This document shows positions 3,309-39,151 of a DNA stretch of 64,000 nt, piece after piece. The position numbers were made by a program, and so were the translations under genes. Source of the DNA: Massilia soli (GTDB lineage Bacteria > Pseudomonadota > Gammaproteobacteria > Burkholderiales > Burkholderiaceae_D); assembly GCF_016809835.1 (NCBI RefSeq), contig NZ_JAFBIL020000003.1, forward strand, positions 124,001 to 188,000, read 5' to 3'. Within the stretch, counting starts at the first letter, position 1. Every line of letters starts with the position of its first letter. Under the pieces are notes generated by a model. That model was not told where the DNA came from, did no database searches, and worked only from the letters and a program-made list of their open reading frames with translations.

Positions 3309-3313
3309 TTCAG

Positions 3314-3340
3314 CCGGCGCGGCGCGACCAGCCGCGCCGG
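3314..3340. terminator. GC-rich hairpin between convergent genes
   Basis: Perfect 10-bp stem CCGGCGCGGC / GCCGCGCCGG with a 7-base loop, between two converging genes. No T-tract follows, so it is a weak candidate for intrinsic termination. Confidence 0.4.
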
Positions 3341-3350
3341 GCAGCGCGCT

Positions 3351-24717: not shown

Positions 24718-25419
24718 ATGAGCAAGACAGCCCCTGAAAAGACCAACGGACATGCGGTCGACGCCATTCCCGCGGTAGCGCACAAGGCCGCCGCGCGCCC
24801 GCTGCCGAAGGAGCCGGCAAAGCCGGCCGCCAAGGCGCCGCTCAAGGCCGCGCCCAAGGCTGCGCTGAAGCCCGCGCCAAAGGCGCCGGCCAAAGCTGCT
24901 GCCAAGGTGGCGGCGAAGCCGGCCGCCAAGCCGGCCGCTAAGGCGGCGCCAAAAGCGGCCGCCAAGCCAGCCGCAAAAGCGGCGCCGCCGGCAGCGGCGG
25001 CAAAGCCAGCCGCCAAGACCGGCGCGAAGGCCGCCGCCAGGGCTGCCGCGCCAAAAGCCCCGCTCGAGGCGACGCCAAAGCCTGCGCCTAAAGTAGCCAA
25101 GGCGCCGAAAGCGCCCGCCAAACCGTCGGCCAAGGCCATGCCAAAGGCGAGCCCGAAAGCGGGAGCGGGATCGGCAGCGGGCGAGCGCGAGAAAACCCGC
25201 AAGCCTAAGCTGGTGCGCGATAGTTTCACGATGCCGGAAGAAGAATACGCCGTGCTGGCGCTGGTGAAGAAGGCCTGCCTGAAGGCCGGCTTCGAAATCA
25301 AGAAGAGCGAATTGCTGCGGGTGGGTGTGGCCTTGATCAGCCAGATCGATGTGGCGACGCTCAAAAGCGTGCTGGCGAGCCTGCCGCAACTGAAGACCGG
25401 GCGGCCCAAGAGCAGCTGA
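24718..25419 (+). CDS. Histone H1-like Ala/Lys/Pro-repeat protein with folded C-terminus
   Basis: 233-residue protein. Residues about 20-155 are an almost pure Ala-Lys-Pro repeat (KPAAKAAPKAAAKPAAKA style), as in eukaryotic H1 tails and bacterial AlgP/HctB-type proteins, so it probably binds nucleic acid. Residues about 160-233 form a different, mixed domain (RDSFTMPEEEYAVLALVKKA, then KKSELLRVGVALISQ) that looks helical and unlike H1. A GGAGA site precedes the ATG. The repeat codes on low-complexity GC-rich DNA, so long reading frames on the opposite strand are artefacts. Confidence 0.8.
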   Translation: MSKTAPEKTNGHAVDAIPAVAHKAAARPLPKEPAKPAAKAPLKAAPKAALKPAPKAPAKAAAKVAAKPAAKPAAKAAPKAAAKPAAKAAPPAAAAKPAAKTGAKAAARAAAPKAPLEATPKPAPKVAKAPKAPAKPSAKAMPKASPKAGAGSAAGEREKTRKPKLVRDSFTMPEEEYAVLALVKKACLKAGFEIKKSELLRVGVALISQIDVATLKSVLASLPQLKTGRPKSS

Positions 25420-25463: not shown

Positions 25464-25751
25464 CTAGTGCATCGAGGCGTTCGACAGGTCTTTCAGTTCC
25501 TTGATGCTCAGGTCCGATTTTTCGTGCATGCGCAGCAGGATGGTCGCGCCGACGGCCAGCTTGCGATGGCGGATCTTGCTGATGATCGGCGGCTGCACTT
25601 CCAGCACACGGCACAGCTCGGCATCATTCTTGAGGTTCAGCTTCTGGATCAAGGTGTCGAGCAGCTTGTTGGGAACAAAACTCGACGGTTCCAGTGCCCG
25701 GGCGCGGTTCATCGCCTCGATCATTTCCAGTTTTCTCTGCCGTACGTTCAT
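25464..25751 (-). CDS. Small HTH-like protein
   Basis: 95-residue protein. Residues about 28-75 (KLLDTLIQKLNLKNDAELCR, then VLEVQPPIISKIRHRKL) fit a Cro/CI-type helix-turn-helix, with the recognition helix around PPIISKIR. The C-terminus is helical (DLSIKELKDLS). Likely a small transcriptional regulator; no target is known. It is convergent with the histone H1-like gene. Confidence 0.7.
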   Translation of the reverse strand: MNVRQRKLEMIEAMNRARALEPSSFVPNKLLDTLIQKLNLKNDAELCRVLEVQPPIISKIRHRKLAVGATILLRMHEKSDLSIKELKDLSNASMH

Positions 25752-25917
25752 CGTACCCCTCCAATTTTACATTGACAGGATTTGTCGACTACCGCTTAAC
25801 GTTGCCGATCGCTACGATTTTTGCTCAGGGAAAATGCAGATCGGGTCAGAATAATGATACTACGTTAAGAATATATGCGGAGCATTGTTGACAAATTAAA
25901 CCCGGAACCGGATTTAT

Positions 25918-26574
25918 TTAGCGCCCATGTGGCGTTAATGTCAATCCTGAGCGTGACAGGACGAAGGTCTTGTCGGCTTTTTCAGCGGCCGCGTGGGAAT
26001 GGGTGACCATGATCGCGGCGGCGCCGCTGGCCTTGATCTCGGCGCGCAGCAGGTCGAGGATGCCTGCCGCCGTTTCCGGATCGAGATTGCCGGTCGGCTC
26101 GTCGGCCAGCACCAGCGCAGGCCGGTGCACCAGCGCGCGGGCAATCGCCACCCGCTGCAGTTCGCCGCCGGACAGCTGGCGCGGGAAATCGCCGCCGCGC
26201 CCTGTCAGTCCCACCTTGTCGAGCATCGCCAGCGCGGCGCCGGCGTCCTGGCCGTTGAGCAGCAGCGGCAGCGCCACGTTCTGCTGCAAGGTCAGGTGCG
26301 GCAGCACGTGGAACGCCTGGAATACAAAGCCCATGCGGCTGCGCCGCAGCCGGGTGGCGGCATCGTCGCCGAGCGCCGAGATCGGGGCGCCGTCGACCAC
26401 GACCTCGCCGCTGTCGGGCGTATCGAGCCCCGCGATCAGGTTCAGCAGCGTCGACTTGCCGACCCCCGATTCGCCCATGATGGCGACGAATTCGCCGGGC
26501 GCGAACCGGTGCGACAGCGCGGCCAGCACCGGGCGCTGGTTGTAGGTCTTGCAGATGTTGATCAGCTCGAGCAT
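25918..26574 (-). CDS. ABC transporter ATPase, LolD/MacB-like, last gene of importer operon
   Basis: 218-residue ATP-binding protein: Walker A GESGVGKST, Q-loop VFQAFHVLPHLT, signature LSGGELQRVAIARAL, Walker B VLADEPTGNLD, H-loop MVTHSH. The text is closest to the LolD/FtsE/MacB group rather than PhnC. It lies 6 bases after the second permease gene, so it belongs to the five-gene importer operon. The operon therefore carries two different ATPases, one per permease perhaps. A role in the same transport process is inferred from position. Confidence 0.82.
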   Translation of the reverse strand: MLELINICKTYNQRPVLAALSHRFAPGEFVAIMGESGVGKSTLLNLIAGLDTPDSGEVVVDGAPISALGDDAATRLRRSRMGFVFQAFHVLPHLTLQQNVALPLLLNGQDAGAALAMLDKVGLTGRGGDFPRQLSGGELQRVAIARALVHRPALVLADEPTGNLDPETAAGILDLLRAEIKASGAAAIMVTHSHAAAEKADKTFVLSRSGLTLTPHGR

Positions 26575-26580
26575 GGAAGC

Positions 26581-27372
26581 CTAGCGGGTGAGGGCGCGGC
26601 GCAGCGCGAAGCTGGCCGCATCGACCAGCGCGACCAGCACCAGCATCGCGATGATCACGGTGGCGGCCTGCTCCATCTGGAACAGCGACAGGTGGTACTT
26701 CAGCATCTGGCCAAGGCCGCCGGCGCCGACCACGCCCAGCACGGCCGCGGCGCGGATGTTGTTCTCCCAGCGGTACAGGGTGTACGACAGCATCTGCGGC
26801 AGCGCCTGCGGCAGGGTCGAATACAGGAAGGCCGCGCCGGCGGTGGCGCCGTTGGCGCGCAGGCTGCGTTCGGGATGCGGCTCGGCGTTTTCGATCACGT
26901 CGGCAAACAGCCGCCCGAGCACGCCCGAGGTGTGCGCCGCCAGCGCCAGCGTGCCGGCGAAGGGACCGAGGCCGGCGGCCACCAGCAGCAGCGACGCCCA
27001 CACCAGCTCGGGAATCGAGCGCAGCACATTGAGCACGCCGCGCGCCGGCACCCGCAGCACCTTGCCGAAGCGGCCGGCGGCCGGCATCGCCAGCGCCATG
27101 CCGCCGATGACTGCGAGCAGGGTGCCGAGCGCCGACATCGACAAGGTCTCGAGGGTGGCGGCCAGGGTCTTCTGCAGGAACGGCAGCGCGGTTTCGGGCG
27201 GCGCGAAGCCGGCCAGGAATTCGCCGCTGCTGCGCAGCGCGTCGGCCGAGAACAGCGCGGCCCACTCCAGCGGCAAGGTGGCGAAGCTGGCCGCCACCAG
27301 CGCGGCCAGGCCGAGCATCAGCAGCATGGTCGACCGCGAGCGCCGCGGCGCGGCCGGCAGCGCGCGCCTCAT
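26581..27372 (-). CDS. PhnE-like ABC permease 2 (candidate selenium/phosphonate-type importer)
   Basis: 263-residue inner-membrane permease of the BPD_transp_1/PhnE type, about six helices. The EAA loop region is visible (LRSIPELVWASLLL, then NGATAGAAFLYSTLPQALPQ and VVGAGGLGQMLKYHLS). Its first codon overlaps the stop of permease 1 (ATGA), showing translational coupling. It probably pairs with permease 1 to make the channel. Substrate is inferred from the neighbouring SelD, EgtB and SenA/SenB-type genes. Confidence 0.85.
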   Translation of the reverse strand: MRRALPAAPRRSRSTMLLMLGLAALVAASFATLPLEWAALFSADALRSSGEFLAGFAPPETALPFLQKTLAATLETLSMSALGTLLAVIGGMALAMPAAGRFGKVLRVPARGVLNVLRSIPELVWASLLLVAAGLGPFAGTLALAAHTSGVLGRLFADVIENAEPHPERSLRANGATAGAAFLYSTLPQALPQMLSYTLYRWENNIRAAAVLGVVGAGGLGQMLKYHLSLFQMEQAATVIIAMLVLVALVDAASFALRRALTR

Positions 27373-28199
27373 GCGAGCCTCCTGCGCATCATTTTCGACA
27401 CCACGTCGGCGCAGCCGACCAGCAGCACGAACACGATCAGCATGGTCGCCACTTCGCCGCCGGCCATCATGCGCATCGATTCATCCATGCGCTGGCCAAG
27501 GCCGCCGGCGCCCACGAAGCCCATCACCGCCGAGCCGCGGATCGCGCACTCCCAGCGGTACACGGTGTACGACACCAGTTCGGAGGCCGATTCGGGAATC
27601 GCGCCGTAGAACAGCGCCGGCAGGCGCGCCGCGCCGCCGGCCAGCAGCGCGTCGGTGGCGCGGGCGTCGGCCGATTCGAGAATCTCGGCGTACACCTTGC
27701 CCAGCATGCCGCTGTAGGTCAGCGCGATCGCCAGCACCCCGGCGGTCGGGCCGAGGCCGACCAGGCGCACGAACAGCAGCGCCCACACCAGTTCGGGCAC
27801 GCTGCGCAGCAGTACCAGCAGCCAGCGCACGGCCTGGCGCAGCAGGCGCGACGAGCGCCGCATGCGGCCGGTGCCCAGGCGCGAGATCGACAGGATCTCG
27901 GTCACCACCAGGGTGGCCGGAATCGCCGCCAGCAGCGCCAGGGTCAGGCCGGCAGTGGCGATCGCCACCGTCTGCCAGGTTTCGCGCAGCACCATCGCCA
28001 GGAACTCGGGGTCGCGCGCCGGCGTCAGGAAGCTCGAGCCGAACTGCCACGCGGCGGCCAGGCTTTGCGCCTCGAACAAGGTCCACGGCTTGAATTCGGA
28101 GTACACCAGCATCGGCCACAGCAGGGCGACGCAGGCGAGGGTAGCCACGACGCGCGAGCGCCAGGCCGGATCTGGATGGCGGGTGGTCGCTGGCCCCAT
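27369..28199 (-). CDS. PhnE-like ABC permease 1
   Basis: 276-residue permease from ATG 28199 (MGPATTRHPDPAW); the open frame extends to 28811, but the added part is the wrong frame of the ATPase gene. Hydrophobic helices begin at VVATLACVALLWPMLVY. Matching motifs to permease 2: LRSVPELVWALLFVRLVGLG and FVGAGGLGQRMDES. It starts 5 bases after the ATPase stop and ends overlapping permease 2. The two permeases are homologous and probably form a heterodimer. Confidence 0.86.
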   Translation of the reverse strand: MGPATTRHPDPAWRSRVVATLACVALLWPMLVYSEFKPWTLFEAQSLAAAWQFGSSFLTPARDPEFLAMVLRETWQTVAIATAGLTLALLAAIPATLVVTEILSISRLGTGRMRRSSRLLRQAVRWLLVLLRSVPELVWALLFVRLVGLGPTAGVLAIALTYSGMLGKVYAEILESADARATDALLAGGAARLPALFYGAIPESASELVSYTVYRWECAIRGSAVMGFVGAGGLGQRMDESMRMMAGGEVATMLIVFVLLVGCADVVSKMMRRRLA

Positions 28200-28204
28200 G
28201 CGCT

Positions 28205-29017
28205 CTAGAAGCAGGCGCCGACCGCGAGACGTTCCGGCGTTTCGTGCAGCTGCGGGGTGGCCGCTTCGAGCTGCTCGTTGCGGTACAGGGCGGCGATCAT
28301 CTCGGGGGTGACCCGTTCGCGGGCCGCGTCGAACACGACGCGGCCATCGCGCAGGCCGACGATGCGCGGGAAGCTGGCCAGCGCAGCGTCGACCTGGTGC
28401 AGGCTGCACACCAGCGTCGCGTTGCGCGCGGTGGCTTCCTGCTGCAGCGTGGCCAGGGTCACTTGCGACAGCGCCGGGTCGAGCGCCGACAGCGGTTCGT
28501 CGACCAGAAAGGCCTGGGCATCGGACAGCAGCAGGCGCGCCAGGGCGCAGCGCTGGCGTTCGCCGCCGGACAGCCGGTCGACCCGCGCATACAGCTTGTC
28601 GCCGAGGCCGAAGCGCTCGAGCGCGTCGAAGGCGGCGTCCGGATCGCGCGGGCGCACCAGCGAGACCAGCGCCTGCCACAGGCTCCAGCGCGGCAGGCGC
28701 GCGGCCAGCACGGCGGTCACCACGCGCTGGCGCGGCGGCAGCGGCGGCGTTTGCGGCGCCAGGAACAGGCTGGCGCGCAGGCCATGGCGGCGGTCTTCGG
28801 GCAGCGCCCATGGGTCCTGGTCGAATACGGACAAGCCGCCGCGCGCAGGGCGGTGCGCGACGGCGAGCGTGGAGAGCAGGGTGGTCTTGCCGGCGCCGGA
28901 AGGCCCGATGATGGCAAGCTGCTCACCCTGCGCGACATCCAGGCTGATCTCGTGCAGCGCCACCGGCGCGCCGGGCGCCAGGTGCCGCACTGTCAGTTTG
29001 TCCAGCCTGAAGGTCAT
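28205..29017 (-). CDS. PhnC-like ABC transporter ATPase
   Basis: 270-residue ATPase: Walker A GPSGAGKTT (about residue 40), signature LSGGERQRCALARLL, Walker B FLVDEPLSALDP, H-loop LHQVD. This fits the phosphonate/phosphite PhnC group. It follows the binding-protein gene by 10 bases. It powers the two permeases, with or alternately to the LolD-like ATPase at the end of the operon. Confidence 0.88.
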   Translation of the reverse strand: MTFRLDKLTVRHLAPGAPVALHEISLDVAQGEQLAIIGPSGAGKTTLLSTLAVAHRPARGGLSVFDQDPWALPEDRRHGLRASLFLAPQTPPLPPRQRVVTAVLAARLPRWSLWQALVSLVRPRDPDAAFDALERFGLGDKLYARVDRLSGGERQRCALARLLLSDAQAFLVDEPLSALDPALSQVTLATLQQEATARNATLVCSLHQVDAALASFPRIVGLRDGRVVFDAARERVTPEMIAALYRNEQLEAATPQLHETPERLAVGACF

Positions 29018-29027
29018 GGCGCGCCTG

Positions 29028-29915
29028 TTACTTCAGCAGGCCGGCGTTGCGCGCGGCCGCTTCGATGGTGGCATAGTTGGCCGGGTTTGTCGGCACGAAC
29101 CGGGTGGCGCGCTGCAGCGCCAGAATTTCCTTGCCTTCGGCGGTCGCCGGGTCCAGCGCCAGGAAGGCATCGGTGATCTTCTTCTTCAGCTCAGCCGGCA
29201 TGTCGCTGCGGACCGTCCAGTTGTAATCGTAATAGGTGGGGGTGGTGTAGAACACGCGCACCGCGGCCGGGTCGACCTTGCGTTCGGCGACCAGCTTTTC
29301 CCATACCGAGATATTCAGCGCGCCCGCATCGACCTTGCCGCCGGCTACAGCGGCCACGGTGGCGTCATGCGCGCCCGAGAACGCGATGCGCTTCATGTCG
29401 GTGTCGGGATTGACCTTTGCCGCCAGCAGGTACGAGCGCGGCATCAGGTGACCCGAGGTCGAGGACTCGGAACCGAAGCTGAAGGTCTTGCCTTTCAGGT
29501 CGGCCAGTTGCTTGATGTCGTTCGACGCGGTGATGAACACCGAGCGGAATTTCTCGTCTTCGGCGCGCTGCACCAGCGGGGTGACCTTGCCGCCGCTGCG
29601 GGCATGCGCCTGCACGAAGGTGAAGCCGCCGAACCAGACCATGTCGAGCTTGTTGTTGACCAGCCCTTCGACCGATGCCGCATAGTCGGTCACCGGCGTG
29701 AATACCACTTTCAGGCCAGTCGCCTTCGACAGGTACTCGCCGAGCGGCTTGAACTTGCGCTGCAGTTCGGTTGGCGCCTCGTCCGGGATTGCGGACACGC
29801 GCAGCGTGCCGGCCACGGCCTGGGCGGCGGCAGGCGCGGTCGAGATAGCGAAGGCGATCGCGAAGCCGGCGGCAAGCATGGTTTTCAAGCTGCGAAAGGT
29901 GGAGAGTTGGGTCAT
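29028..29915 (-). CDS. PhnD-family substrate-binding protein, candidate selenium-oxyanion binder
   Basis: 295-residue periplasmic binding protein with a signal peptide (cleavage near AAAQA). It has the PhnD pattern: LRVSAIPDEAPTELQRKFKP, TPVTDYAASVEGLVNNKLDM, WFGGFTFVQA and SFGSESSTSGHLMP. The IPDE.PT and GGFTFVQA text is like the clade that annotation pipelines call putative selenate-binding, as I recall; it differs from classic phosphonate PhnD. Gene context (selenium and ergothioneine genes on the facing strand) supports a selenium role. Phosphonate or phosphite binding remains possible. It is the first gene of a five-gene operon, with 128 bp to egtD. Confidence 0.85.
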   Translation of the reverse strand: MTQLSTFRSLKTMLAAGFAIAFAISTAPAAAQAVAGTLRVSAIPDEAPTELQRKFKPLGEYLSKATGLKVVFTPVTDYAASVEGLVNNKLDMVWFGGFTFVQAHARSGGKVTPLVQRAEDEKFRSVFITASNDIKQLADLKGKTFSFGSESSTSGHLMPRSYLLAAKVNPDTDMKRIAFSGAHDATVAAVAGGKVDAGALNISVWEKLVAERKVDPAAVRVFYTTPTYYDYNWTVRSDMPAELKKKITDAFLALDPATAEGKEILALQRATRFVPTNPANYATIEAAARNAGLLK

Positions 29916-30043
29916 GAAGGGCTTTCAGGTAGGAAAGACGACAGTGACACGCCGCGTGGAGGACGCCAGCGAGCGCGAAAAAAATGAATATTCAGCTATG
30001 ATAACAAAATCAACACAACCGCAACGGCCAGACCGTGAATTCC

Positions 30044-31009
30044 ATGCTGACACAATGCCAGACAGACACACGCCGCTCTGTTTCCGCGACAAGCATCCAG
30101 GCCGAGCTGAGCACAGGCTTGCTGGCGGCCGAGGCAGTCATTTCGCCGAAGTTCCTGTATGACGCGCTCGGCTCGCGGCTGTTTGAAGCCATCTGCGAAT
30201 TGCCCGAATATTACCCGACCCGCACTGAAGCTGCCATCTTCGCCCGATACGGTGCCGATATCGCGCGCGCCATCGGCCCCGGGGCGACCTTGATCGACCT
30301 GGGCGCCGGCAATTGCGCCAAGGCGGCCAGCCTGTTTCCCCTGTTGCACCCGGACCAGTACGTGGCGATCGACATCTCGTGGGATTTCCTGCAGCAATCG
30401 CTGCTGAGCCTGCGCCAGCGTTTCCCGCACATCGAGATGACGGCGCTGGGGCAGGATTTCTCGTCCCGCCTCGATCTTCCGGCCGACGTCAGCCCGGCGC
30501 GCCGGCTGTTCTTCTATCCCGGCTCATCGATCGGCAACTTCACGCCGGATCAGGCGCTGGCCTTCCTGCGCCGCGCGCGCGCCCAGTGCGACCGCGACGG
30601 CGGGCTGCTGATCGGGGTCGACCTGATCAAGGATGAACAAGTTCTGTCCGATGCCTACGACGACGCGCTCGGCGTCACCGGCGCCTTCAACCTGAACGTG
30701 CTGCGCCACGTCAACCTGCTGCTGGGCGCCGACTTCGACGTGCGCGGCTGGCGCCACAAGGCCTTTTTCAACCGTGACGACAGCCGCATCGAGATGCACC
30801 TCGAGGCGCAGCGCGACATGCAGGTCAGCTGGCCGGGCGCTGCGCGCAGCTTCGCGCGCGGCGAGTGCATCCACACCGAAAACAGCTACAAGTACCGCAA
30901 GAGCGGGGTCATCGGCCTCCTTGAACAGGCCGGCTTCCAGGCGCTGCACAGCTGGACCGATCCCGACGAGTGGTTTGCCGTCATCCATGCGCGCGCCATT
31001 GACGCCTGA
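30044..31009 (+). CDS. egtD: L-histidine N-alpha-methyltransferase EgtD
   Basis: 321-residue SAM-dependent enzyme that trimethylates histidine to hercynine, the precursor of ergothioneine and selenoneine. From ATG 30044 the length equals mycobacterial EgtD (an in-frame GTG at 30035 is also possible). Visible motifs: YDALGSRLFEAI, CELPEYYPTRTE (the Tyr pair at 56-57 binds substrate), SAM loop LIDLGAGN (83-90) and the C-terminal ENSYKYR. A TATGAT hexamer at 29997 could be its -10. It overlaps egtB by 23 bases. The hercynine made here can feed both EgtB and the SenA-like enzyme about 6 kb away. Confidence 0.94.
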   Translation: MLTQCQTDTRRSVSATSIQAELSTGLLAAEAVISPKFLYDALGSRLFEAICELPEYYPTRTEAAIFARYGADIARAIGPGATLIDLGAGNCAKAASLFPLLHPDQYVAIDISWDFLQQSLLSLRQRFPHIEMTALGQDFSSRLDLPADVSPARRLFFYPGSSIGNFTPDQALAFLRRARAQCDRDGGLLIGVDLIKDEQVLSDAYDDALGVTGAFNLNVLRHVNLLLGADFDVRGWRHKAFFNRDDSRIEMHLEAQRDMQVSWPGAARSFARGECIHTENSYKYRKSGVIGLLEQAGFQALHSWTDPDEWFAVIHARAIDA

Positions 31010-32165
31010 CCTGCTGCGGCGCCGCTTCGCCGACGTCCGCCTGGCGTCGCTGGCACTGGCCGAGCCGCTCTCCAGCGAGGACTGCACCGCGCAGTCGATG
31101 GCCGACGCCAGCCCGGTCAAATGGCACCTCGCGCACACCACCTGGTTCTTCGAGACCTTCATCCTGGAACCCCATGAAGCCGATTTCCAGCCGTTCCACG
31201 CGGCCTTCCGGGTGCTGTTCAATTCGTACTACAACGGCATCGGCGCCAAGCATCCGCGCGCGCAGCGCGGGCTGCTGACCCGGCCGGGCATGGACGCGGT
31301 GCGCGATTACCGCGCCGACGTCGACGCGCGCATGCTGCGCCTGCTCGATCAGCGCGCCGGCGACGCCGCGCTGGCGGCGCTGGTCACGCTCGGCCTGCAG
31401 CACGAGCAGCAGCACCAGGAGCTGATCCTCACCGATGTCAAGCACCTGCTGGCGCAAAACCCCCTGTACCCGGCCTATCTGGACACCGTACCGGCGGCCG
31501 TGCCGCTGGCGCCAGCGCTGGAATGGTGCGCCTTCGAGGGCGGCCTGGCCGACATCGGCCATGCGGGCGACGGCTTCTGCTTCGATAACGAGCTGCCGCG
31601 CCACCGCGTGTTCGTGGCGCCGTTCGAACTGGCCAGCCGGCTGGTGACCAATGGCGACTATCTCGCCTTCATCGAAGCGGGCGGCTACCGCGATGCCGCG
31701 CTCTGGCTGTCGGAGGGCTGGGACATGGTCCGCGCCGGCCAGCTGGAGCGTCCGCTGTACTGGCTGGACGACGACCGCGAGTTCACGCTGCACGGCGCCC
31801 AGCCGCTCGACCTGTCCGCGCCGCTGGCGCACGTATCGCTGTACGAAGCCGACGCCTACGCGCGCTGGGCCGGGGCGCGCCTGCCCACCGAAGCGGAGTG
31901 GGAAGTGGCGGCGTCCAACCCCGGCGGCCTGCTCCAGCTGTACGGCCATCGCTGGCAGTGGACCAGCAGCAGCTACGCACCTTACCCCGGCTTTGCGCCA
32001 CAACCCGGCGCCATCGGCGAATACAACGGAAAATTCATGATCAACCAGTATGTCCTGCGCGGCTCCTCGTGCGCCACGCCCGACGGGCACGCGCGCGCCA
32101 GCTACCGCAACTTCTTCCCGGCCGGGGCGCGCTGGCAGTTCAGCGGCATCAGGCTCGCGCGATGA
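30987..32165 (+). CDS. egtB: Ergothioneine synthase EgtB (non-heme iron sulfoxide synthase)
   Basis: 392-residue enzyme joining a thiol to hercynine with O2. The N-terminal DinB-like domain holds the iron ligands: SPVKWHLAHTTWFFE (His50), and HX3HXE as HEQQHQE (His139, His143). The C-terminal FGE-sulfatase-like domain starts near AFEGGLADIG and includes YPGFAPQPGAIGEYNGKF and YRNFFP. This is the canonical EgtB text. The ATG at 30987 overlaps egtD by 23 bases; the stop overlaps the next gene (ATGA). EgtA, EgtC and EgtE are not in the window, so the sulfur donor (gamma-glutamylcysteine or cysteine) is not settled. Confidence 0.92.
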   Translation: MRAPLTPDLLRRRFADVRLASLALAEPLSSEDCTAQSMADASPVKWHLAHTTWFFETFILEPHEADFQPFHAAFRVLFNSYYNGIGAKHPRAQRGLLTRPGMDAVRDYRADVDARMLRLLDQRAGDAALAALVTLGLQHEQQHQELILTDVKHLLAQNPLYPAYLDTVPAAVPLAPALEWCAFEGGLADIGHAGDGFCFDNELPRHRVFVAPFELASRLVTNGDYLAFIEAGGYRDAALWLSEGWDMVRAGQLERPLYWLDDDREFTLHGAQPLDLSAPLAHVSLYEADAYARWAGARLPTEAEWEVAASNPGGLLQLYGHRWQWTSSSYAPYPGFAPQPGAIGEYNGKFMINQYVLRGSSCATPDGHARASYRNFFPAGARWQFSGIRLAR

Positions 32166-33091
32166 CCTTCAAGCGACTGGCACCGATCCAGATCCTCAAC
32201 CGGCGCGCCAACGCCTACATCCTGGCGCACCCGCTCGCATTCACGATCCAGGTGCTCAAGGGCTTCCGCGCCAACCAGGGCCTGCTGCTGGCCGGCGCGG
32301 TGGCGTATTACGCGCTGCTGTCGATCGTGCCGTTCCTGATGCTGGTGGTGGTGGCGCTGTCGCACTTCATGGACCCGATCGAGCTGCTGGCGACCTTGCA
32401 CCGCTACCTCGAGTGGCTGCTGCCGGGCCAGTCGAGCGCGATCGTGCAGGAGGTGTCGAACTTCCTCAACGAGCGCGGCCTGATCACCGGCGTGCTGCTG
32501 GTGACGATGCTGTTTTTCAGTTCGCTCGCGTTCACGGTACTGGAGAACGCGATGAGCGTGATCTTCATCCACCGCGTGGCGATCCGGCGGCGCCACTTCT
32601 TTGTCTCGGCCATCTTGCCTTACTGCTACATCCTGGCGCTCGGCGTCGGCGTGATGCTGGTGACGCTGGTGGCCGGCACCTTGCAGGTGATGGGCGAGGA
32701 AGAGATCAACTTTCTCGGTTACCACTGGTCGCTGAACGGCGTGTCGGGCGTGCTGCTGTATCTGCTGGGCCTGTTCGGCGAGATTCTGGTGCTGACGTCG
32801 ATCTACCTGGTGATGCCGGTCGGCCGCCTGTCGCTGTCGCATGCGCTGGTCGGCGCCGTGACCGCGGCACTGCTGTGGGAAGCGGCGCGCCATGTGCTGG
32901 TGTGGTACTTCTCGACGCTGTCGCAAGTGAACATCGTGTATGGATCGATGACGACCGCGATCGTCGTCATGCTGACCCTTGAGATCGGCGCCGCCTTGCT
33001 GCTGCTGGGCGCCCAGGTGATATCGGAGTACGAGCGGGTAGGGCGCAAGCAGCACGGCGAGCCGCAGCCGATGACCACGCGCCCGGCCTGA
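32162..33091 (+). CDS. YihY/BrkB-family membrane protein
   Basis: 309-residue inner-membrane protein of the YihY/UPF0761 family (formerly mislabelled RNase BN). About six helices; family text GLLLAGAVAYYALLSIVP at residue 40, and later GSMTTAIVVMLTLEIGA. The role is unsettled; some members may be transporters. It starts inside the egtB stop codon (ATGA), so it is translationally coupled to egtB, which is unusual and suggests co-expression. It is convergent with DUF1428. Confidence 0.88.
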   Translation: MTFKRLAPIQILNRRANAYILAHPLAFTIQVLKGFRANQGLLLAGAVAYYALLSIVPFLMLVVVALSHFMDPIELLATLHRYLEWLLPGQSSAIVQEVSNFLNERGLITGVLLVTMLFFSSLAFTVLENAMSVIFIHRVAIRRRHFFVSAILPYCYILALGVGVMLVTLVAGTLQVMGEEEINFLGYHWSLNGVSGVLLYLLGLFGEILVLTSIYLVMPVGRLSLSHALVGAVTAALLWEAARHVLVWYFSTLSQVNIVYGSMTTAIVVMLTLEIGAALLLLGAQVISEYERVGRKQHGEPQPMTTRPA

Positions 33092-33092
33092 T

Positions 33093-33452
33093 TTATACGT
33101 CGACCACCATCTCGAAGCCGCCGTAGATCATGCGCTTGCCGTCAAAGGGCATGTTCTCCGGCTTCATCCACTGCGCCATGCGCGGATCCTTCATGACCTT
33201 GTCGTTGATCTCGTCGCGGCTGGCGCGCGATGGGTAGACAATCCACGAAAAGAACACCACTTCGCCTTCTTCGAGCATCACGCTTTGCGGAAAGGACGTC
33301 AACTTGCCGGGCTTGACGTCGTCGCCCATGCACTCGCGAAATTCAAGCGCGCCCAGCTCGCGCCAGATCTTGCCGCAGGTGGTGGACATCTCCTTGTAGC
33401 GCTCCACATCCTGCTTCTTTACTGCCACCACGAAACCATCGACGTACGCCAT
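33093..33452 (-). CDS. DUF1428 family protein
   Basis: 119-residue DUF1428 protein (dimeric alpha/beta-barrel-like fold, function unknown). Start at ATG 33452 after GAGGAG; family text MAYVDGFVVAVKKQDVERYK, then SWIVYPSRASRDEINDKVM and GKRMIYGGFEM. Commonly found as a single small gene. Whether it has to do with the neighbouring sulfur/selenium genes is unclear. Confidence 0.9.
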   Translation of the reverse strand: MAYVDGFVVAVKKQDVERYKEMSTTCGKIWRELGALEFRECMGDDVKPGKLTSFPQSVMLEEGEVVFFSWIVYPSRASRDEINDKVMKDPRMAQWMKPENMPFDGKRMIYGGFEMVVDV

Positions 33453-33636
33453 GACATTCTCCTCTTTGGGGTTGGATGAGCTGACAATAGTACGCCGCGC
33501 GCGGCGCGCACGGCGCGTCACAGGCCTTGTTTTTTATCAATTGCATGAATGTATCCCGGTGGCACATTAGTCGATGCGGCGGAGCGATTTTTCGTCGCCA
33601 GCTGCCGACGCCACCGATAAAAAAAGGATGCCTGAA

Positions 33637-33756
33637 ATGAATCTCACCTCAGTCCGGATCGCGATCCTGATCGCCTGCCTGCTAGCCGTTCGCTCGGTCC
33701 TGGGTGCCGCGCGCGCCGCTGTCAGGCGCTTGCTGCCGCCCCAATCGTTCATGTGA
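33637..33756 (+). CDS. Small hydrophobic peptide upstream of DUF1906 gene
   Basis: 39-residue ORF with one hydrophobic helix (VRIAILIACLLAVRSVLGAA) followed by a basic Arg-rich tail. AAGGA lies 8 bases before the ATG. It ends 11 bases before the DUF1906 start. Tiny, with no family; could be a leader peptide or a small membrane protein. Confidence 0.45.
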   Translation: MNLTSVRIAILIACLLAVRSVLGAARAAVRRLLPPQSFM

Positions 33757-33767
33757 AGGAGTACGTT

Positions 33768-34418
33768 ATGCCCGCCCTCAAAGGACTCGACACAGCCGCC
33801 GAGCTGACCCGCCACGCCAGCGCGCTGCGCTCGCAGGGCTATGACTTCGCGATGCGCTACTACAGCCACAACGCCGCCAAGAACCTGTCGCTGGGCGAGG
33901 CGCGCGCCTTGTCGGCCGCCGGCCTGCTGATCGGCGCGGTGTGGGAGACGGCCGCGACCCACGCCAGCTTTTTCAGCCGCGCCCAAGGCGTGGCCGATGG
34001 CGCGGCGGCGTTCAACATGGCGCGGGCGACGATCGGCCAGCCGGCCGGCTCGGCGATCTATTTCGCGGTCGACTACGACGCCACCGAAGCCGACCTGGAA
34101 GGCCCGGTGGGCGACTATTTCGCCGGCATCAAGATGGCCTTCGCGGCCGCGGCCGACGGCCTGTCGCCGTATGGCGTCGGTGTGTATGGATCGGGACTGT
34201 GCTGCGAGACGCTGATCGACCGGCAGCTGGCGAGCCTGGGCTGGCTGTCGCAGTCGGCCAGCTTCGCCGGGTCGACGGCGTATGCCGACGGGGCGCGCTA
34301 CAACCTGATCCAGAAACTGCCCGTGCGGGCTGCCGGCACAGGGTTGCAACTGAGTTATGACCCGGATGCGAGCAATCCGGACCGGCCGCACGGGCTGTTC
34401 CGGCTCAGCGGCTTTTAA
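33768..34418 (+). CDS. DUF1906 (Rv2525c-like glycoside hydrolase-like) protein
   Basis: 216-residue protein of the DUF1906 family, a TIM-barrel domain related to GH25 lysozymes and often encoded near wall or phage genes. ATG 33768 has GAAGGAG 6 bases upstream. Family text: GLDTAAELTRHASALRSQGY, FAMRYYSHNAAKNLS, YFAVDYDATE and GVYGSGLCCETLID. No signal peptide. It may bind or cut peptidoglycan, but catalytic status is unproven. It ends 4 bases before the convergent selD-like gene. Confidence 0.85.
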   Translation: MPALKGLDTAAELTRHASALRSQGYDFAMRYYSHNAAKNLSLGEARALSAAGLLIGAVWETAATHASFFSRAQGVADGAAAFNMARATIGQPAGSAIYFAVDYDATEADLEGPVGDYFAGIKMAFAAAADGLSPYGVGVYGSGLCCETLIDRQLASLGWLSQSASFAGSTAYADGARYNLIQKLPVRAAGTGLQLSYDPDASNPDRPHGLFRLSGF

Positions 34419-34422
34419 GCGC

Positions 34423-35481
34423 TCAGGCGCTCACGCAAACCCGTGGCGCGCCGGCCGCCATCCGGCCGACCACGGCCGCATGCGCGAAGCCTTCGCGCGC
34501 GAACAGCGCCAGCACCTCGTCGGCGATGGCCGGGTCGACCGATACCAGCAGGCCGCCGGAGGTCTGCGGATCGGTCAGCAAGGCTTGCTGGGCCGCGGCG
34601 ATGCCCTCGAACAGCGTGACATCGCTGCCGTAGGCGTCCCAGTTGCGGCCGGAGGCGCCGGTGAAGAAGCCATCGCGCGCCAGCTGTTCGACGCCCGGCA
34701 GCAGCGGAATGCTGGCCATGTCGAGCTGTGCTTCAAGCTTGGCGCCGCGCGCCAGTTCCAGCAGGTGGCCGAGCAGGCCGAAGCCGGTGATATCGGTCAT
34801 CGCATGCACGCCGGGCATGTCGGCCAGGGCCTTGCCGGGCTTGTTCAGCTTTGTCGTGTTCTCGATCATGGCGGCATAGCCGTCGGCATCGAGCGCATCT
34901 TTTTTCAGCGCCGCCGACAGCACGCCGACGCCGAGCGGCTTGCCCAGGATGAGCACATCGCCGGCCCTGGCATCGGCATTGCGCTTGACCTTCGACGGAT
35001 GCACCAGCCCGAGGACGACCAGGCCGTAGATCGGCTCGACCGAATCGATGGTGTGGCCGCCGGCGATCGGAATGCCCGCTTCGGCGCAGATCGACTCGCC
35101 GCCGCGGATGATCTGGCCGATCGTCTCGATCGGCAGCTTGTTGACCGGCATGCCGACCAGCGCGAGCGCCATGATCGGCGTGCCGCCCATGGCGTAGACG
35201 TCGGAGATGGCGTTGGTGGCGGCAATCCGGCCGAAGTCGAACGGGTCGTCGACGATCGGCATGAAGAAGTCGGTGGTGGCGATCAGCGCCTGTTCGTCAT
35301 TGAGCTTGTAGACCGCGGCATCGTCGGCGGTCTCGATGCCGACCAGCAGTTCTTTCGGCACCGGGAAGCCGGTCGAATTCTTCAGGATCTCGGACAGCAC
35401 GCCCGGCGCGATCTTGCAGCCGCAGCCGCCGCCATGCGAGAACGAGGTGAGTTTGATGGTTTGCTCTGGTGCTGTGCTCAT
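34423..35481 (-). CDS. senC: Selenophosphate synthase (SelD/SenC)
   Basis: 352-residue enzyme making selenophosphate from selenide and ATP. The N-terminus has the catalytic signature FSHGGGCGCKIAP with Cys20 and Lys23 (Cys17/Lys20 in E. coli SelD), then DDAAVYKL and FGRIAATNAISDVYAMG. Length is as in SelD (about 347). It lies 13 bases after the senB-type gene, so the two form an operon. In the published selenoneine pathway the SelD homologue of the cluster is called SenC. It could also serve selenoproteins or selenouridine tRNA; no selA, selB or selU is in the window. Confidence 0.9.
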   Translation of the reverse strand: MSTAPEQTIKLTSFSHGGGCGCKIAPGVLSEILKNSTGFPVPKELLVGIETADDAAVYKLNDEQALIATTDFFMPIVDDPFDFGRIAATNAISDVYAMGGTPIMALALVGMPVNKLPIETIGQIIRGGESICAEAGIPIAGGHTIDSVEPIYGLVVLGLVHPSKVKRNADARAGDVLILGKPLGVGVLSAALKKDALDADGYAAMIENTTKLNKPGKALADMPGVHAMTDITGFGLLGHLLELARGAKLEAQLDMASIPLLPGVEQLARDGFFTGASGRNWDAYGSDVTLFEGIAAAQQALLTDPQTSGGLLVSVDPAIADEVLALFAREGFAHAAVVGRMAAGAPRVCVSA

Positions 35482-35494
35482 GGAGGTTCCGATA

Positions 35495-36478
35495 TCAGTG
35501 GGTGCCGGCGTGCCGTGCGATGAGCAGATTATCCACCATGTCGCGCACGGCTGCTTGCTCGGCTTGCGGCGCAAACAGCGCGGCGCGCGCGCCGCACTGC
35601 GCTTGCAGCCGCTCGAGGAAAGCCGGGTCGTCGATGCAGCGCGCCATCAATGCGGCCAGCGCGGGGGCGTCGCCGAGCGGGAAGTAGCCTTGGTAGCCGG
35701 CCCCCAGCATGCCGCGGTTGCCGTCGATGTCGCTGGCCAGCACCGGCACGCCGCTGGTGACGGCCTCGATGATGACGTTGGCGCCGCCTTCCATCACCGA
35801 CGCGATCACCAGCGCGTCGCTGCACGCCAGCGCCATGCGCGCCGCCGGATGGGCCAGGTTGCCCATCCACTGGTAGCGCGGGTCGGCTTCTGCGGTGTCC
35901 CCGGCGGCGGCGCCGAGCTGCTCGTCGAGCGCGCCGCCGATATGGATGAAGCGGGCGCTGTCATGCGCCACCAGCCGGGCCGCGCGCATGAAGGTCAGCG
36001 GGTCTTTTTCAGGACGCAGGTGGCCGATCATGGCGAACGTGAATTCATCGATGCCGGCCGCGTGCGGCACATGCGGCAGCGCTGGCGCCGACTGCCAGAT
36101 CAGGCGCGCCTTGGCGCGGTAGCGCGGCGGCAGCACGGCAATGCCGGCTTCCTGCAGCAGCACCAGCACATCGGCGTGCGCCAGCGAGGCCTGGGCGGCG
36201 GGGTCGTCGTGGATGTCGCGGTACAGGTCGGTGCCGGTCAACACCAGCACGCGCGGCCGGTCGGGGTGTTGTTCGGCAAAGGCGGCCAGCGCGGCGGCCG
36301 AGCGGCGCGCGTGCAGCGCGATCAGCAGGTCGGGGGCCGAGCCGGTGACGGGTGACCACGACGCGCTGATGTTGACGTCGTAGGCGGGCGTGAGGAAGTG
36401 CGCCCAGCGCATGGCGGTCTGCCAGTTGCCGTTATTTGCCTCGGCCAAGGCCGGGCTGACGATGGTTACGCGTTGCAC
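35495..36478 (-). CDS. senB: Selenosugar synthase-type GT-B glycosyltransferase (SenB)
   Basis: 327-residue glycosyltransferase-fold protein. The GTG start at 36478 has GAAGGAG 8 bases upstream; the ATG at 36559 would run into the facing gene. Text: VSPALAEANNGNWQTAMRW at the N-terminus, LTGTDLYRD, then the GT-B signature FAMIGHLRPEKDP and EGGANVIIEAVTSGVPV. The NNGNWQTA motif marks the group (TIGR04348-like, as I recall) whose member SenB turns selenophosphate plus a UDP-sugar into a selenosugar. It is followed by senC and faces senA, which supports this call. Confidence 0.88.
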   Translation of the reverse strand: MQRVTIVSPALAEANNGNWQTAMRWAHFLTPAYDVNISASWSPVTGSAPDLLIALHARRSAAALAAFAEQHPDRPRVLVLTGTDLYRDIHDDPAAQASLAHADVLVLLQEAGIAVLPPRYRAKARLIWQSAPALPHVPHAAGIDEFTFAMIGHLRPEKDPLTFMRAARLVAHDSARFIHIGGALDEQLGAAAGDTAEADPRYQWMGNLAHPAARMALACSDALVIASVMEGGANVIIEAVTSGVPVLASDIDGNRGMLGAGYQGYFPLGDAPALAALMARCIDDPAFLERLQAQCGARAALFAPQAEQAAVRDMVDNLLIARHAGTH

Positions 36479-36502
36479 CGGGTCCGCTCCTTCAAAAGTC
36501 GT

Positions 36503-36508
36503 TACAAT
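36503..36508 (+). promoter_or_regulatory. Possible -10 hexamer of senA
   Basis: TACAAT ends 6 bases before the senA ATG. No clear -35 at the standard spacing was found. If used, the mRNA would be nearly leaderless. Confidence 0.3.
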
Positions 36509-36514
36509 CCTGCC

Positions 36515-37711
36515 ATGAACCCAATCACCGCATCGTTCAGGCAGGCCAGGCCCCAACAATTGTCAGAAGCGCTGCAGTCTGCCAGAAATTATACGCTGCG
36601 CCTGTTCGATTGCCTGGCCCATGCCGGTTACGGCGTACCGGCCCGGGTGCCGCACATCGCCACCATCAACCCGCCGCTGTGGGAGCTCGGCCATACCGCG
36701 TGGTTCGCCGAGTGGTTTGTGCTGCGCCAGGCCGCGTCCAGCCATCCGGCCGACGCCGCCGGCCACTCGCTGCTCACGCGCGGCGACGACTGGTTCGACT
36801 CCAACACGGTGGCGCACCGCAGCCGCTGGACGCTCGACCTGCCCAACACCGGCTCGCTCAAGACCTACTGCAACGAAGTGCTCGACCGGGTGCTCGACAA
36901 GCTTTCGCGCGAAGCCAGCGTGGACCAGGCGCTGTACCCGTACCGGCTGGTGCTGGCGCATGAAGACATGCACGGCGAAGCGCTGCTGCACGCGCTGCAG
37001 CAGCTCGGCGTGGCGGCGCCGCCGGAGCTGATGAAGGACATCGGCGGGGCCGTGGCGCCGCGCGAAATCGCCTATCCCGGCGCCACGATCCAGCTGGGCG
37101 GCGCGCAGGAGAACGGCTTTGTGTTCGACAACGAGAAGCTGGCGCACCCGTGCTACGTGCCGCCGTTTGCGATCGATGCGGCGCTGGTCACCAATGAGCA
37201 GTACGCGGAGTTCATCGCCGACGGCGGCTACCAGCGCGCCGGCTACTGGAGCCAGGCCGGGCAGGCGTGGCTGATGGGGCAGGAGCGGTCGGCCCCGCGC
37301 TACTGGCAGCGCGACGGCGGGCGCTGGCTGGCCAGCCGGTTTGGCCGGCTGCAGACGCTCGATCCGCATGAGGCGGTGCGCCATGTGACGCTGTTCGAGG
37401 CGCAGGCTTACTGCATGTGGGCGGAGCGGCGCCTGCCGACCGAGGCGGAATGGGAGTACGCAGCGGTGTCCGGGCAGCCGGGCTTCACCTGGGGCCAGCT
37501 GTGGGAATGGACGGCGTCGCCGTTCGAGCCGTATCCGGGATTCGCACCGGGCCCGTACCGCGAGTATTCGGCGCCGTGGTTCATGACGCACCAGGTGCTG
37601 CGCGGCGCGTCGTTTGCGACGCCGTCGCGGTTTGGCTCGGCGCGCTTCAGAAACTTCTATCTGCCGCAGCGCGATGACATCTTCGCCGGGTTCCGCACCT
37701 GCGCATTCTGA
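36515..37711 (+). CDS. senA: Selenoneine synthase SenA (divergent EgtB homologue)
   Basis: 398-residue non-heme iron enzyme predicted to join hercynine to a selenosugar. DinB-like domain: PPLWELGHTAWFAEW (His60) and HX3HXE as HEDMHGE (His149, His153, Glu155). FGE-sulfatase-like domain from about residue 180 with FDNEKLAHP, LPTEAEWEYAA, WEWTASPFEPYPGFAPGP and a C-terminal FAGFRTCAF. It differs clearly from the egtB product in this window. The ATG at 36515 leaves only 36 bp to the facing senB start; a longer frame to 36398 would overlap it. A TACAAT at 36503 would place transcription start near the ATG. A terminator follows. Confidence 0.88.
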   Translation: MNPITASFRQARPQQLSEALQSARNYTLRLFDCLAHAGYGVPARVPHIATINPPLWELGHTAWFAEWFVLRQAASSHPADAAGHSLLTRGDDWFDSNTVAHRSRWTLDLPNTGSLKTYCNEVLDRVLDKLSREASVDQALYPYRLVLAHEDMHGEALLHALQQLGVAAPPELMKDIGGAVAPREIAYPGATIQLGGAQENGFVFDNEKLAHPCYVPPFAIDAALVTNEQYAEFIADGGYQRAGYWSQAGQAWLMGQERSAPRYWQRDGGRWLASRFGRLQTLDPHEAVRHVTLFEAQAYCMWAERRLPTEAEWEYAAVSGQPGFTWGQLWEWTASPFEPYPGFAPGPYREYSAPWFMTHQVLRGASFATPSRFGSARFRNFYLPQRDDIFAGFRTCAF

Positions 37712-37724
37712 ACGAGGGCGTAAA

Positions 37725-37754
37725 AAAAGCGGCTACCGAGGTAGCCGCTTTTCA
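37725..37754. terminator. Bidirectional terminator between senA and rhlE-like gene
   Basis: Stem AAAAGCGGCTAC / GTAGCCGCTTTT with a CGAG loop, flanked by A and T runs, shared by two converging genes. Confidence 0.9.
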
Positions 37755-37771
37755 TGTAAGCGCCTGAACGA

Positions 37772-39151
37772 TTAACGGTCGCCGTAGGTGCGGCGTGCGC
37801 CGTCGGCCGAGCGTGGGTTCGAACCCTTGTAGCCGCCGCCCGCAGGGGCGCCTTCGCGGCGCGGTGCGCCTGGCTTGCTGAAGGTGCGCTGGCCTGGCTT
37901 GGCGCCGGTGCGGTTGTCGCCCGGTTTCCAGGTGCCTGGACGTGCCGCCGAACGTGGCGCCGAAGCGGTGCGCTTTGGCTCGAAACCTTCGATGACGTTG
38001 ACCGGGATCAGCTGCTTGGTGAAGCGCTCGATACGCTTGACGTTCATGCCTTCGGCGTGGTTCACCAGCGAGATCGCCAGGCCGTTGCGGCCGGCGCGGC
38101 CGGTGCGGCCGATGCGGTGAACGTAGTCCTCAGGGAACTTCGGCAAGTCGTAGTTGAACACGTGCGTGATGGTCGGGACGTCGATGCCGCGTGCTGCCAC
38201 GTCGGTCGCGACCAGTACCTTTACATTGCCGCGGCGCAGGCCGTCGAGCGTGCGGTTACGGGCGCCCTGGTGCATGTCGCCATGCAGCGCGGCGGCCGAG
38301 AAACCGGCGATGTTCAGGCGGTCGGCGATGGTGTCGGCGTCACGCTTGGTGGCGGTGAAGACAACTGCCTGGTCGAGCGTCTCGTCGCGCAGCAGGTGGT
38401 CCAGCAGGCGGTTTTTGTGCGACAGGTCGTCGACGAAGTGGACGCGCTGCACGATGTTCTCGTGCTTGCTCGACGAACTGGTGATCTGGATGACCATCGG
38501 ATCTTTGGTGATGCGGCGCGCCATATTGCCGACCATGCCGTCCAGGGTTGCCGAGAACAGCATCGTCTGGCGGCCAGCTGGCGTTGCAGCGATGATCTTC
38601 TCGATGTCGTCGATGAAGCCCATGTCCAGCATGCGGTCAGCTTCGTCCAGCACCAGGATTTCCAGTTGCGAGAAGTCGATCTTGCCCGATTCCATGTGAT
38701 CGATCAGGCGGCCTGGGGTCGCCACGAGGATCTCTGGATTCTTGGCCAGCAGTTGCATCTGCTTAGGGTAAGGCATGCCGCCCAGGATCGAGACGGCGCG
38801 GATGCGGCGGATCTGGGTACCGTATTTTTCGGTCGCGCTGGTCACTTGCAGTGCCAGTTCGCGGGTTGGGGTCAGCACCAGCATCTTCGGCTGTGCTGCC
38901 TTGAAACGTGGACGCTCGCCAGGGGCGCCGCGCGGGGCGACAGGCGCTTGCTCGGCGAGAGCGAGCTTGTGCAGGGCTGGCAGCATGAATGCCGCGGTCT
39001 TGCCCGAACCGGTCTGCGAGGACACCAGCAGGTCACGGCCCGCGATACCCGCAGGAATCGCTTGCTCTTGTACAGGGGTCGGCGTGGTGTAGCCGGCATC
39101 GGTTGCTGCTTTTACGATAGACGCGTGGAGGCCTAATGCTTCAAAACTCAT
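37772..39151 (-). CDS. rhlE: DEAD-box RNA helicase, RhlE-like
   Basis: 459-residue ATP-dependent RNA helicase. Q motif GYTTPTPVQEQAIP, motif I SSQTGSGKT, motif Ia PTRELALQ, motif II VLDEADRMLDMGF, motif III SAT, motif VI HRIGRTGRAG. The C-terminus after about residue 380 is basic, Arg/Gly/Pro-rich and disordered, typical of RhlE. It acts in ribosome assembly and mRNA decay, and is often cold induced. A GAAAGAAAAGAAAAC run precedes the ATG. Symbol by resemblance; other DEAD subgroups are possible. Confidence 0.87.
   Translation of the reverse strand: MSFEALGLHASIVKAATDAGYTTPTPVQEQAIPAGIAGRDLLVSSQTGSGKTAAFMLPALHKLALAEQAPVAPRGAPGERPRFKAAQPKMLVLTPTRELALQVTSATEKYGTQIRRIRAVSILGGMPYPKQMQLLAKNPEILVATPGRLIDHMESGKIDFSQLEILVLDEADRMLDMGFIDDIEKIIAATPAGRQTMLFSATLDGMVGNMARRITKDPMVIQITSSSSKHENIVQRVHFVDDLSHKNRLLDHLLRDETLDQAVVFTATKRDADTIADRLNIAGFSAAALHGDMHQGARNRTLDGLRRGNVKVLVATDVAARGIDVPTITHVFNYDLPKFPEDYVHRIGRTGRAGRNGLAISLVNHAEGMNVKRIERFTKQLIPVNVIEGFEPKRTASAPRSAARPGTWKPGDNRTGAKPGQRTFSKPGAPRREGAPAGGGYKGSNPRSADGARRTYGDR

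Follow-up and report, generated by a model that had tools for sequence, protein, structure and literature searches.

The 64,000-nucleotide stretch of Massilia soli DNA analysed here (RefSeq assembly GCF_016809835.1, contig NZ_JAFBIL020000003.1, positions 124,001 to 188,000, hereafter the window) comes from a genome of 4,990,115 bases and contains, at window positions 25918–37711, genes for ergothioneine and selenoneine synthesis together with a five-gene ATP-binding cassette (ABC) importer and a conserved element that separates the importer from egtD. The gene order is importer (minus strand), overlapping egtD-egtB (plus), a BrkB/YihY-type gene (plus), a DUF1428 gene (minus), a gene with an Rv2525c-like glycoside-hydrolase domain (plus), selD and senB (minus), and senA (plus). 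Families were called with hmmscan against NCBIfam, bit scores being read against the curated cut-offs. The outer limits, first drawn in an annotation made from the letters alone (the first-pass annotation), agree with open reading frame (ORF) ends. Taken as a whole, this is likely to be a seleno- and thio-histidine-betaine locus with a candidate selenium importer. The features are as follows.

25918..26574, minus strand: second importer ATPase, LolD/FtsE-like (PF00005)
26581..27372, minus strand: importer permease 1, PhnE family (TIGR01097, 246.6 bits, cut-off 216.7)
27369..28199, minus strand: importer permease 2, PhnE-like, start counted by hand (TIGR01097, 183.4 bits on 27369–28145, below the cut-off of 216.7)
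28205..29017, minus strand: importer ATPase 1, PhnC-like (TIGR02315, 174.9 bits, below the cut-off of 266.1; PF00005)
29028..29915, minus strand: periplasmic substrate-binding protein, putative selenium oxyanion binding (TIGR04553, 400.6 bits, cut-off 250)
29989..30010, no strand assigned: conserved element TATTCAGCTATGATAACAAAAT in the importer–egtD gap, probably a promoter or operator shared by the two
30035..31009, plus strand: EgtD, L-histidine N-alpha-methyltransferase, forming hercynine (TIGR03438, 379.9 bits, cut-off 290.9)
30987..32165, plus strand: EgtB, ergothioneine sulfoxide synthase, start counted by hand, overlapping the end of egtD (TIGR03440, 545 bits on 30981–32165, cut-off 360)
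34423..35481, minus strand: SelD, selenophosphate synthetase (SenC role), start counted by hand (TIGR00476, 440.3 bits on 34423–35496, cut-off 125)
35495..36478, minus strand: SenB, selenosugar synthase, with the start of the first-pass annotation, in frame of ORF 35495–36559 (TIGR04348, 413.3 bits, cut-off 300)
36515..37711, plus strand: SenA, selenoneine synthase (NF041186, 527.6 bits, cut-off 420)

The five biosynthetic proteins, which the first-pass annotation had already placed at these positions, each exceeded the curated cut-off in the profile search, and we hold the roles of EgtD, EgtB, SelD, SenB and SenA given above with high confidence. Among structures in the PDB, SenA matched 8ryz and 8k5i (328 bits), EgtB matched 8qf6, 6qki and 6o6l (433 bits), SenB matched 8k5u, 8fbx and 8jjn, and SelD matched the solved SelD 3u0o (338.5 bits); 6qki and 8qf6, near-identical to the ‘Cabther’ EgtB 6o6l, are presumably from Chloracidobacterium. 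That SenA is a second EgtB homologue distinct from the first was borne out by the profiles, with SenA and EgtB scoring 527.6 and 394.1 on the SenA model and 292.3 and 545 on the EgtB model, respectively. A tree of 88 rows, labelled by the better-matching window protein and with hits below 330 residues or 120 bits left out, was split by a 100/100 branch into 50 SenA and 38 EgtB rows; it includes two pairs of identical rows, and four branches were flagged as long. In this phylogeny, a kind of analysis named beforehand as a possible refutation, the window SenA fell inside the SenA clade, where it shares a set of 26 rows (99/98) with the solved Variovorax SenA; EgtB fell outside that clade, grouping with the solved ‘Cabther’ EgtB. 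Together with the scores of SenA, SenB and SelD, this placement supports naming the three genes after the senABC pathway.

The same data bear on the idea that SenA and SenB are sulfur-based, converting a thiosugar to ergothioneine so that a single product would be reached by two routes. Sulfur and selenium chemistries are close and EgtB and SenA are homologous, but the two proteins form separate clades that are both present in the same loci, senB adjoins selD (13 bp by the hand-assigned starts), and SenA and SenB of Variovorax are reported as selenium enzymes (PMC9814287; PMC10891094, in the part available), which leaves a sulfur-based route highly improbable. The identity of SenB, upheld by its TIGR04348 score, also draws on four residues that the available part of PMC10891094 singles out as important, N20, T23, K158 and E231; the window protein keeps them all as N45, T48, K185 and E257 (counting from the TTG at 36559), and across 48 aligned rows the lysine and the glutamate were each present in 48, the asparagine in 47 (with one gap) and the threonine in 45. 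One published feature speaks against this assignment, as the EGGAHV motif reads EGGANV in the window SenB. Position 235 within the motif is N, the window’s residue, in 33 of the 48 rows and H in the other 15, and as N is so frequent EGGANV looks like a common variant that gives no ground to exclude SenB.

The genome carries one selD and one selU, and selA gave no match at E 1e-50, on which we rejected selenocysteine use in this genome. The dedicated SenC of the first-pass annotation did not survive these searches, as the SelD encoded here is the only one found and SelU is also present; a single selenophosphate synthetase should therefore serve both tRNA modification and selenoneine. From characterised relatives we infer that EgtD would trimethylate histidine to hercynine, which EgtB would combine with a sulfur donor on the way towards ergothioneine. 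SelD would supply selenophosphate, from which SenB would form a selenosugar that SenA would join to hercynine to give selenoneine, and SelU, encoded elsewhere in the genome, would use the same selenophosphate to make tRNA 2-selenouridine. A common hercynine pool for ergothioneine and selenoneine is a natural inference from pathway knowledge. In its biosynthetic part the locus adds a further example of pathways already known, that of sen among them.

Two observations were made on SelD in other genomes, which together with their loci are given by our G and L numbers. SelD domains were seen in frames of about 700–900 residues or longer, probably fused, in G003, G016, G052, G137, G218, G283, G317, G498, G515 and others, and in G003, G218, G317, G498 and G515 the probable fusion lay near TIGR04553 and senB genes. 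SelD frames with one in-frame TGA were seen in G005, G012, G046, G055, G060, G090, G100, G104, G131, G140, G144, G160, G255, G492 and G523; these are perhaps selenocysteine-containing SelD proteins.

All five genes of the importer predicted by the first-pass annotation are present, but its PhnD type did not hold: the binding protein scored 177.1 on the PhnD model TIGR03431 (cut-off 261.1) and belongs instead to TIGR04553. The curated PhnCDE test also failed on PhnC, permease 1 alone passed the PhnE model, and the second ATPase reached no cut-off among the 25 families listed. NCBIfam names TIGR04553 ‘putative selenate ABC transporter’ and classes it as a hypoth_equivalog, and its selenium role is a known prediction for which we found no experimental proof. 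To place the family, we used an order sample of 150 genomes, M. soli included, in which TIGR04553 was called at E 1e-50, and a phylum sample of 398 genomes. In the order sample TIGR04553 was present in 33 genomes, in 32 of them above the curated cut-off; selD accompanied it in 32 of the 33 carriers, compared with 112 of all 150 genomes, and selU in all 33. The phylum sample gave 34 carriers, 32 of them with selD, against 129 selD genomes among the 398. A genome was counted as having sen genes if it carried senB at E 1e-40, four such matches being below the cut-off, or senA above the cut-off; among selD genomes of the order, the importer was found in 24 of the 51 that qualified and in 8 of the 61 that did not.

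As a within-genome control we took PhnD-like genes matching TIGR01098 at E 1e-33 (107 matches in the 150 genomes), of which 74, from 43 genomes, did not overlap TIGR04553. Eight of the 33 TIGR04553 genes had selD, senB or selA within 15 kb, and five had egtD within that distance, as opposed to none of the 74 other PhnD-like genes in either case. Across the phylum sample, selD was within 15 kb of 14 of the 34 importer genes. On a genome-wide scale, these control genes also tracked selD and senB, though more weakly (p 0.014 and 0.004, kinship uncorrected), so that the genome-level counts are partly confounded, and we regard the neighbourhood counts, likewise uncorrected for relatedness, as the stronger evidence.

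Besides this confounding, several observations count against a selenium importer. Within the order sample, 25 of the 33 importer genes had no selD, senB or selA at a distance of 15 kb or less, the importer was absent from 27 of the 51 genomes that have both selD and sen genes, and G056 and G141, of the same family as M. soli, also lacked it. The importer occurred without selD in G288 (100% complete) and G402 (78%) of the phylum sample and in G002 of the order sample; as G002 has senA, senB, selA and selU, its selD is perhaps merely missing from the assembly. In addition, 26 of 80 named loci, some on short contigs, had none of egtD, egtB, selD, selU, selA, senA or senB in their flanks. These loci are the best 80 of 569 confirmed stretches, a sample that leans towards Oxalobacteraceae, and their flanks of up to 10 kb on each side were searched by tblastn at E 1e-15, the queries being the window proteins, SelU of G000 and SelA of G007. 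Clustering of neighbours found recurring blocks in 7 of the 26, which by eye are methylcitrate-cycle genes and look unrelated.

Among the 80 named loci, the importer was divergent from egtD at a distance of at most 600 bp in 36, stood with selD and selU in eight and with selA in seven, and was directly adjacent to senA in three. Pfam assigned two ORFs at selA-type loci to a formate-dehydrogenase iron-sulfur subunit (L128) and a molybdopterin oxidoreductase (L136), which fits a selenocysteine setting. The combination is thus not peculiar to this genome, and egtD and selD with senA or senB were found in the flanks of 16 of the 80. G003, G049 and G498, which belong to other families of the order, have the binding protein with egtD, senA, senB and selD, and egtB had no match in the stretches fetched from them; these loci suggest that the combined locus is a recurring arrangement to which egtB is an Oxalobacteraceae addition. 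The frequent divergence from egtD, with a common element in between, could also mean that what the importer scavenges is not an inorganic anion but hercynine, ergothioneine or selenoneine. The bacterial ABC transporter for ergothioneine is of another, OpuC-like type. That bacteria have a transporter specific for ergothioneine is already known (PMC9732360, in the part available), in 15 of the 80 named loci selD-selU or selA is nearby while the flanks contain no egt gene, and the phosphite-binding relatives have small, tyrosine-capped pockets (PMC5700983, as far as available) whose cap residue is kept here, all of which makes betaine scavenging very unlikely.

To consider the cargo, we built an AlphaFold model of the binding protein from 30 aligned family members (mean predicted local distance difference test score 88, predicted template modelling score 0.80). 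Its best PDB folds were PhnD1 with phosphate, phosphite or methylphosphonate (7s6g, 5lq5, 5lq8), followed by PtxB, and the arsenate-binding ArrX and arsenite-binding AioX appeared among lower matches. The available part of PMC10284923 lists the ligand and cap residues of PhnD1, which binds phosphate, and the window protein, compared through an alignment, is identical at all 11 (D45, Y78, T99, S151, S152, T153, S154, H183, N201, D230 and Y231). Y78, T99, S151–S154, H183 and Y231 were invariant in 30 of 30 family members; D45, N201 and D230 jointly become E, D and N in 9 of the 30, and one more has S at 201, a pattern that suggests two cap subtypes, D/N/D and E/D/N. The pocket thus fits an oxyanion held through three oxygens beneath a tyrosine cap.

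This pocket weighs against a selenium cargo in one respect: being identical at 11 positions to that of phosphate-binding PhnD1, it does not single out selenium. The pocket facts also allow a phosphorus cargo, and the main rival is accordingly a transporter for phosphite, phosphate or phosphonate that lies beside egtD by chance and whose selenium link is lineage inheritance. The ligands with which the closest solved relatives were crystallised point the same way, and the selenium name in NCBIfam is only a hypothesis. The rival is at odds, however, with the absence of all 74 control genes from the vicinity of selD, senB, selA or egtD, and with TIGR04553 genes that adjoin selD-selU, selA, senA or egtD in different lineages. 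On balance we think a phosphorus transporter unlikely, and import of inorganic selenium likely.

In shape, hydrogenselenite is like phosphite: it too has three oxygens, and a lone pair takes the place of the phosphite hydrogen. If inorganic selenium is imported, the choice of oxyanion can be argued by analogy with phosphite-binding relatives, which in the available part of PMC5700983 favour phosphite over phosphate and phosphonates by 2–4 orders of magnitude. A three-oxygen, tyrosine-capped pocket of this kind would be expected to bind selenite better than selenate, and selenite is rather probably the main cargo. Selenate is the cargo in the family name, and the PhnD1 relative binds tetrahedral phosphate (PMC10284923, in the part available); given the preference for phosphite and the phosphite-like shape of hydrogenselenite, selenate appears somewhat unlikely. 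The divergent operon of one binding protein, two permeases and two ATPases would thus import a selenium oxyanion, hydrogenselenite being likelier than selenate.

Next, we considered the gap between importer and egtD. The assigned start codons of the binding protein and egtD have 119 bases between them, in which the element TATTCAGCTATGATAACAAAAT lies at 29989–30010. Its consensus is TATTCrGCTATsATArCAAAA, with a symmetrical core, GCTATNATAGC, at 29995–30005. Scored at its best place in the gap, the core occurred with at most one mismatch in 32 of 36 egtD-linked relatives and with at most two in 33; the four lacking the closer match were L065 (two mismatches), L125, L129 and L139. At loci without egtD, the 500 bases upstream of the importer contained the core with at most one mismatch in 2 of 44 cases and with at most two in 4 of 44. 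The egtD-linked relatives are mutually non-independent, yet they differ in the sequence that surrounds the element. A matrix from 34 sites, the window’s included, scored the window site at 40.5; elsewhere in the window only its own reverse reading reached at least 12, and five letter-shuffled windows gave no match of at least 12. As the matrix was trained on these loci, high scores at them arise by construction, and the independent points for the element are the mismatch counts relative to loci without egtD and the single exact copy in the genome.

The genome count was made with a 19-base pattern, which had one exact match, at this locus, and four matches with three mismatches, against ten in all for a reversed control pattern. 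A genome-wide operator regulon was rejected on these numbers, and a shared promoter fits better. The core contains TATSAT, which is −10-like, on both strands, and on the importer strand a TG one base before it, a combination that in our reading resembles an extended −10 box. Symmetrical bidirectional promoters have been described in bacteria (PMC12825309 and PMC10268837, in the parts available), and in view of these and of the symmetrical −10-like core we take the element for a shared promoter or, alternatively, an operator; that it acts as one or the other is probable. A sigma-70 scan of 25500–38000, which requires a −35 box, speaks against a promoter in that it returned no promoter-like sites (mean of shuffles 1.2). 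A terminator scan of the same interval found six terminator-like sites (mean of shuffles 6.4). On the promoter reading, this one symmetrical element probably drives both the importer and egtD-egtB, so that selenium uptake and hercynine supply would rise together.

Two other arrangements were seen in passing. The divergent starts of senB and senA as assigned are 36 bases apart (36479–36514), and any promoters there would have to overlap coding sequence. In L090 (11626–15869) some 4 kb of DNA interrupts the importer operon, setting ATPase 1 apart from permease 2, which is preceded by a second, weaker egtD/importer element (score 19.1 at 15727).

The second ATPase directly follows permease 1 in 31 of the 80 named loci, with egtD adjacent in all 31, and in two egtD loci without it, L067 and L081, the stretch stops before its place. 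The tie to egtD is not strict: a 57% identical second ATPase in G102 (L192) ends an importer operon placed after senB and selD, and egtD is about 55 kb from that operon. In G056 (L200/L201), of the same family, the second ATPase remains beside egtD in a genome that has senA, senB, selD, egtB and egtD; no TIGR04553 gene was found in that genome, the other four importer genes were not found beside egtD, and no element scoring at least 12 was among those listed for the two loci. This orphan ATPase is either a relic or has a further role. Past it, L201 carries at 2808–3650 a gene that by eye resembles one at 24718–25416 of the window, which encodes a lysine/alanine/proline-rich, histone-H1-like protein without a Pfam match.

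In the remainder of the locus, the BrkB/YihY-type, DUF1428 and Rv2525c-like glycoside-hydrolase domain proteins between egtB and selD belong to families without a selenium link. Rfam gave no match at gathering scores in the window, and no tRNA was found in it. Massilia agrisoli is the nearest named relative in the set of 80 loci, with identities of 89% for the binding protein, 96% for SelD and 91% for SenA.

Compared with senABC of Variovorax paradoxus, the locus has the same adjacent SenA, SenB and SelD/SenC homologues with the key SenB residues kept; it differs in adding egtD-egtB, the importer operon and the divergent element (although the founding paper, Kayrouz 2022, may show such neighbours), in a SelD that must also serve SelU, and in its EGGANV motif. 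The window EgtB, by score and clade, resembles the ‘Cabther’ enzyme. The binding protein shares its fold with PhnD1 (7s6g, 5lq5) and PtxB, and with PhnD1 the listed ligand and cap residues, but it is set apart from them by its sub-cut-off PhnD score and its selenium-gene partners. AioX and ArrX show the same fold used for a non-phosphorus oxyanion; they are only 21–26% identical to it in structural alignment, and their gene partners are presumably other than those of the window importer. With regard to TIGR04553 itself, the protein is a member of the family by score, and the cargo argued for here is selenite rather than the selenate of the family name.

In the literature searched, TIGR04553 was not mentioned, and there was no joint mention of selenoneine, ABC transporter and phosphonate, or of selenite, substrate-binding protein, ABC transporter and selenophosphate synthetase; ‘putative selenate ABC transporter’ turned up in one paper, as an entry in a table of genes and in a brief aside. 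The available part of a 2026 review states that a dedicated bacterial selenium importer has not been identified, and the operon is a good candidate for one. Relative to the NCBIfam prediction, the case is strengthened by the within-genome control, the variety of selenium partners, the pocket argument for selenite and the element shared with egtD. More tentatively, and with somewhat more doubt than conviction, we suggest that TIGR04553 may be a dedicated high-affinity selenite importer of Pseudomonadota that is re-housed beside whichever selenium pathway a lineage has, and that in Oxalobacteraceae is wired by one symmetrical promoter to hercynine synthesis, usually with a second ATPase, so that selenium and the betaine needed for selenoneine would be supplied in step.

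Collectively, the locus offers a well-bounded, testable importer candidate, for which there is a structural reason to favour selenite first. Massilia and its allies would be a lineage that keeps uptake together with the supply of the precursor and the making of the product, and the locus allows a clean test of how hercynine is split between sulfur and selenium antioxidants.

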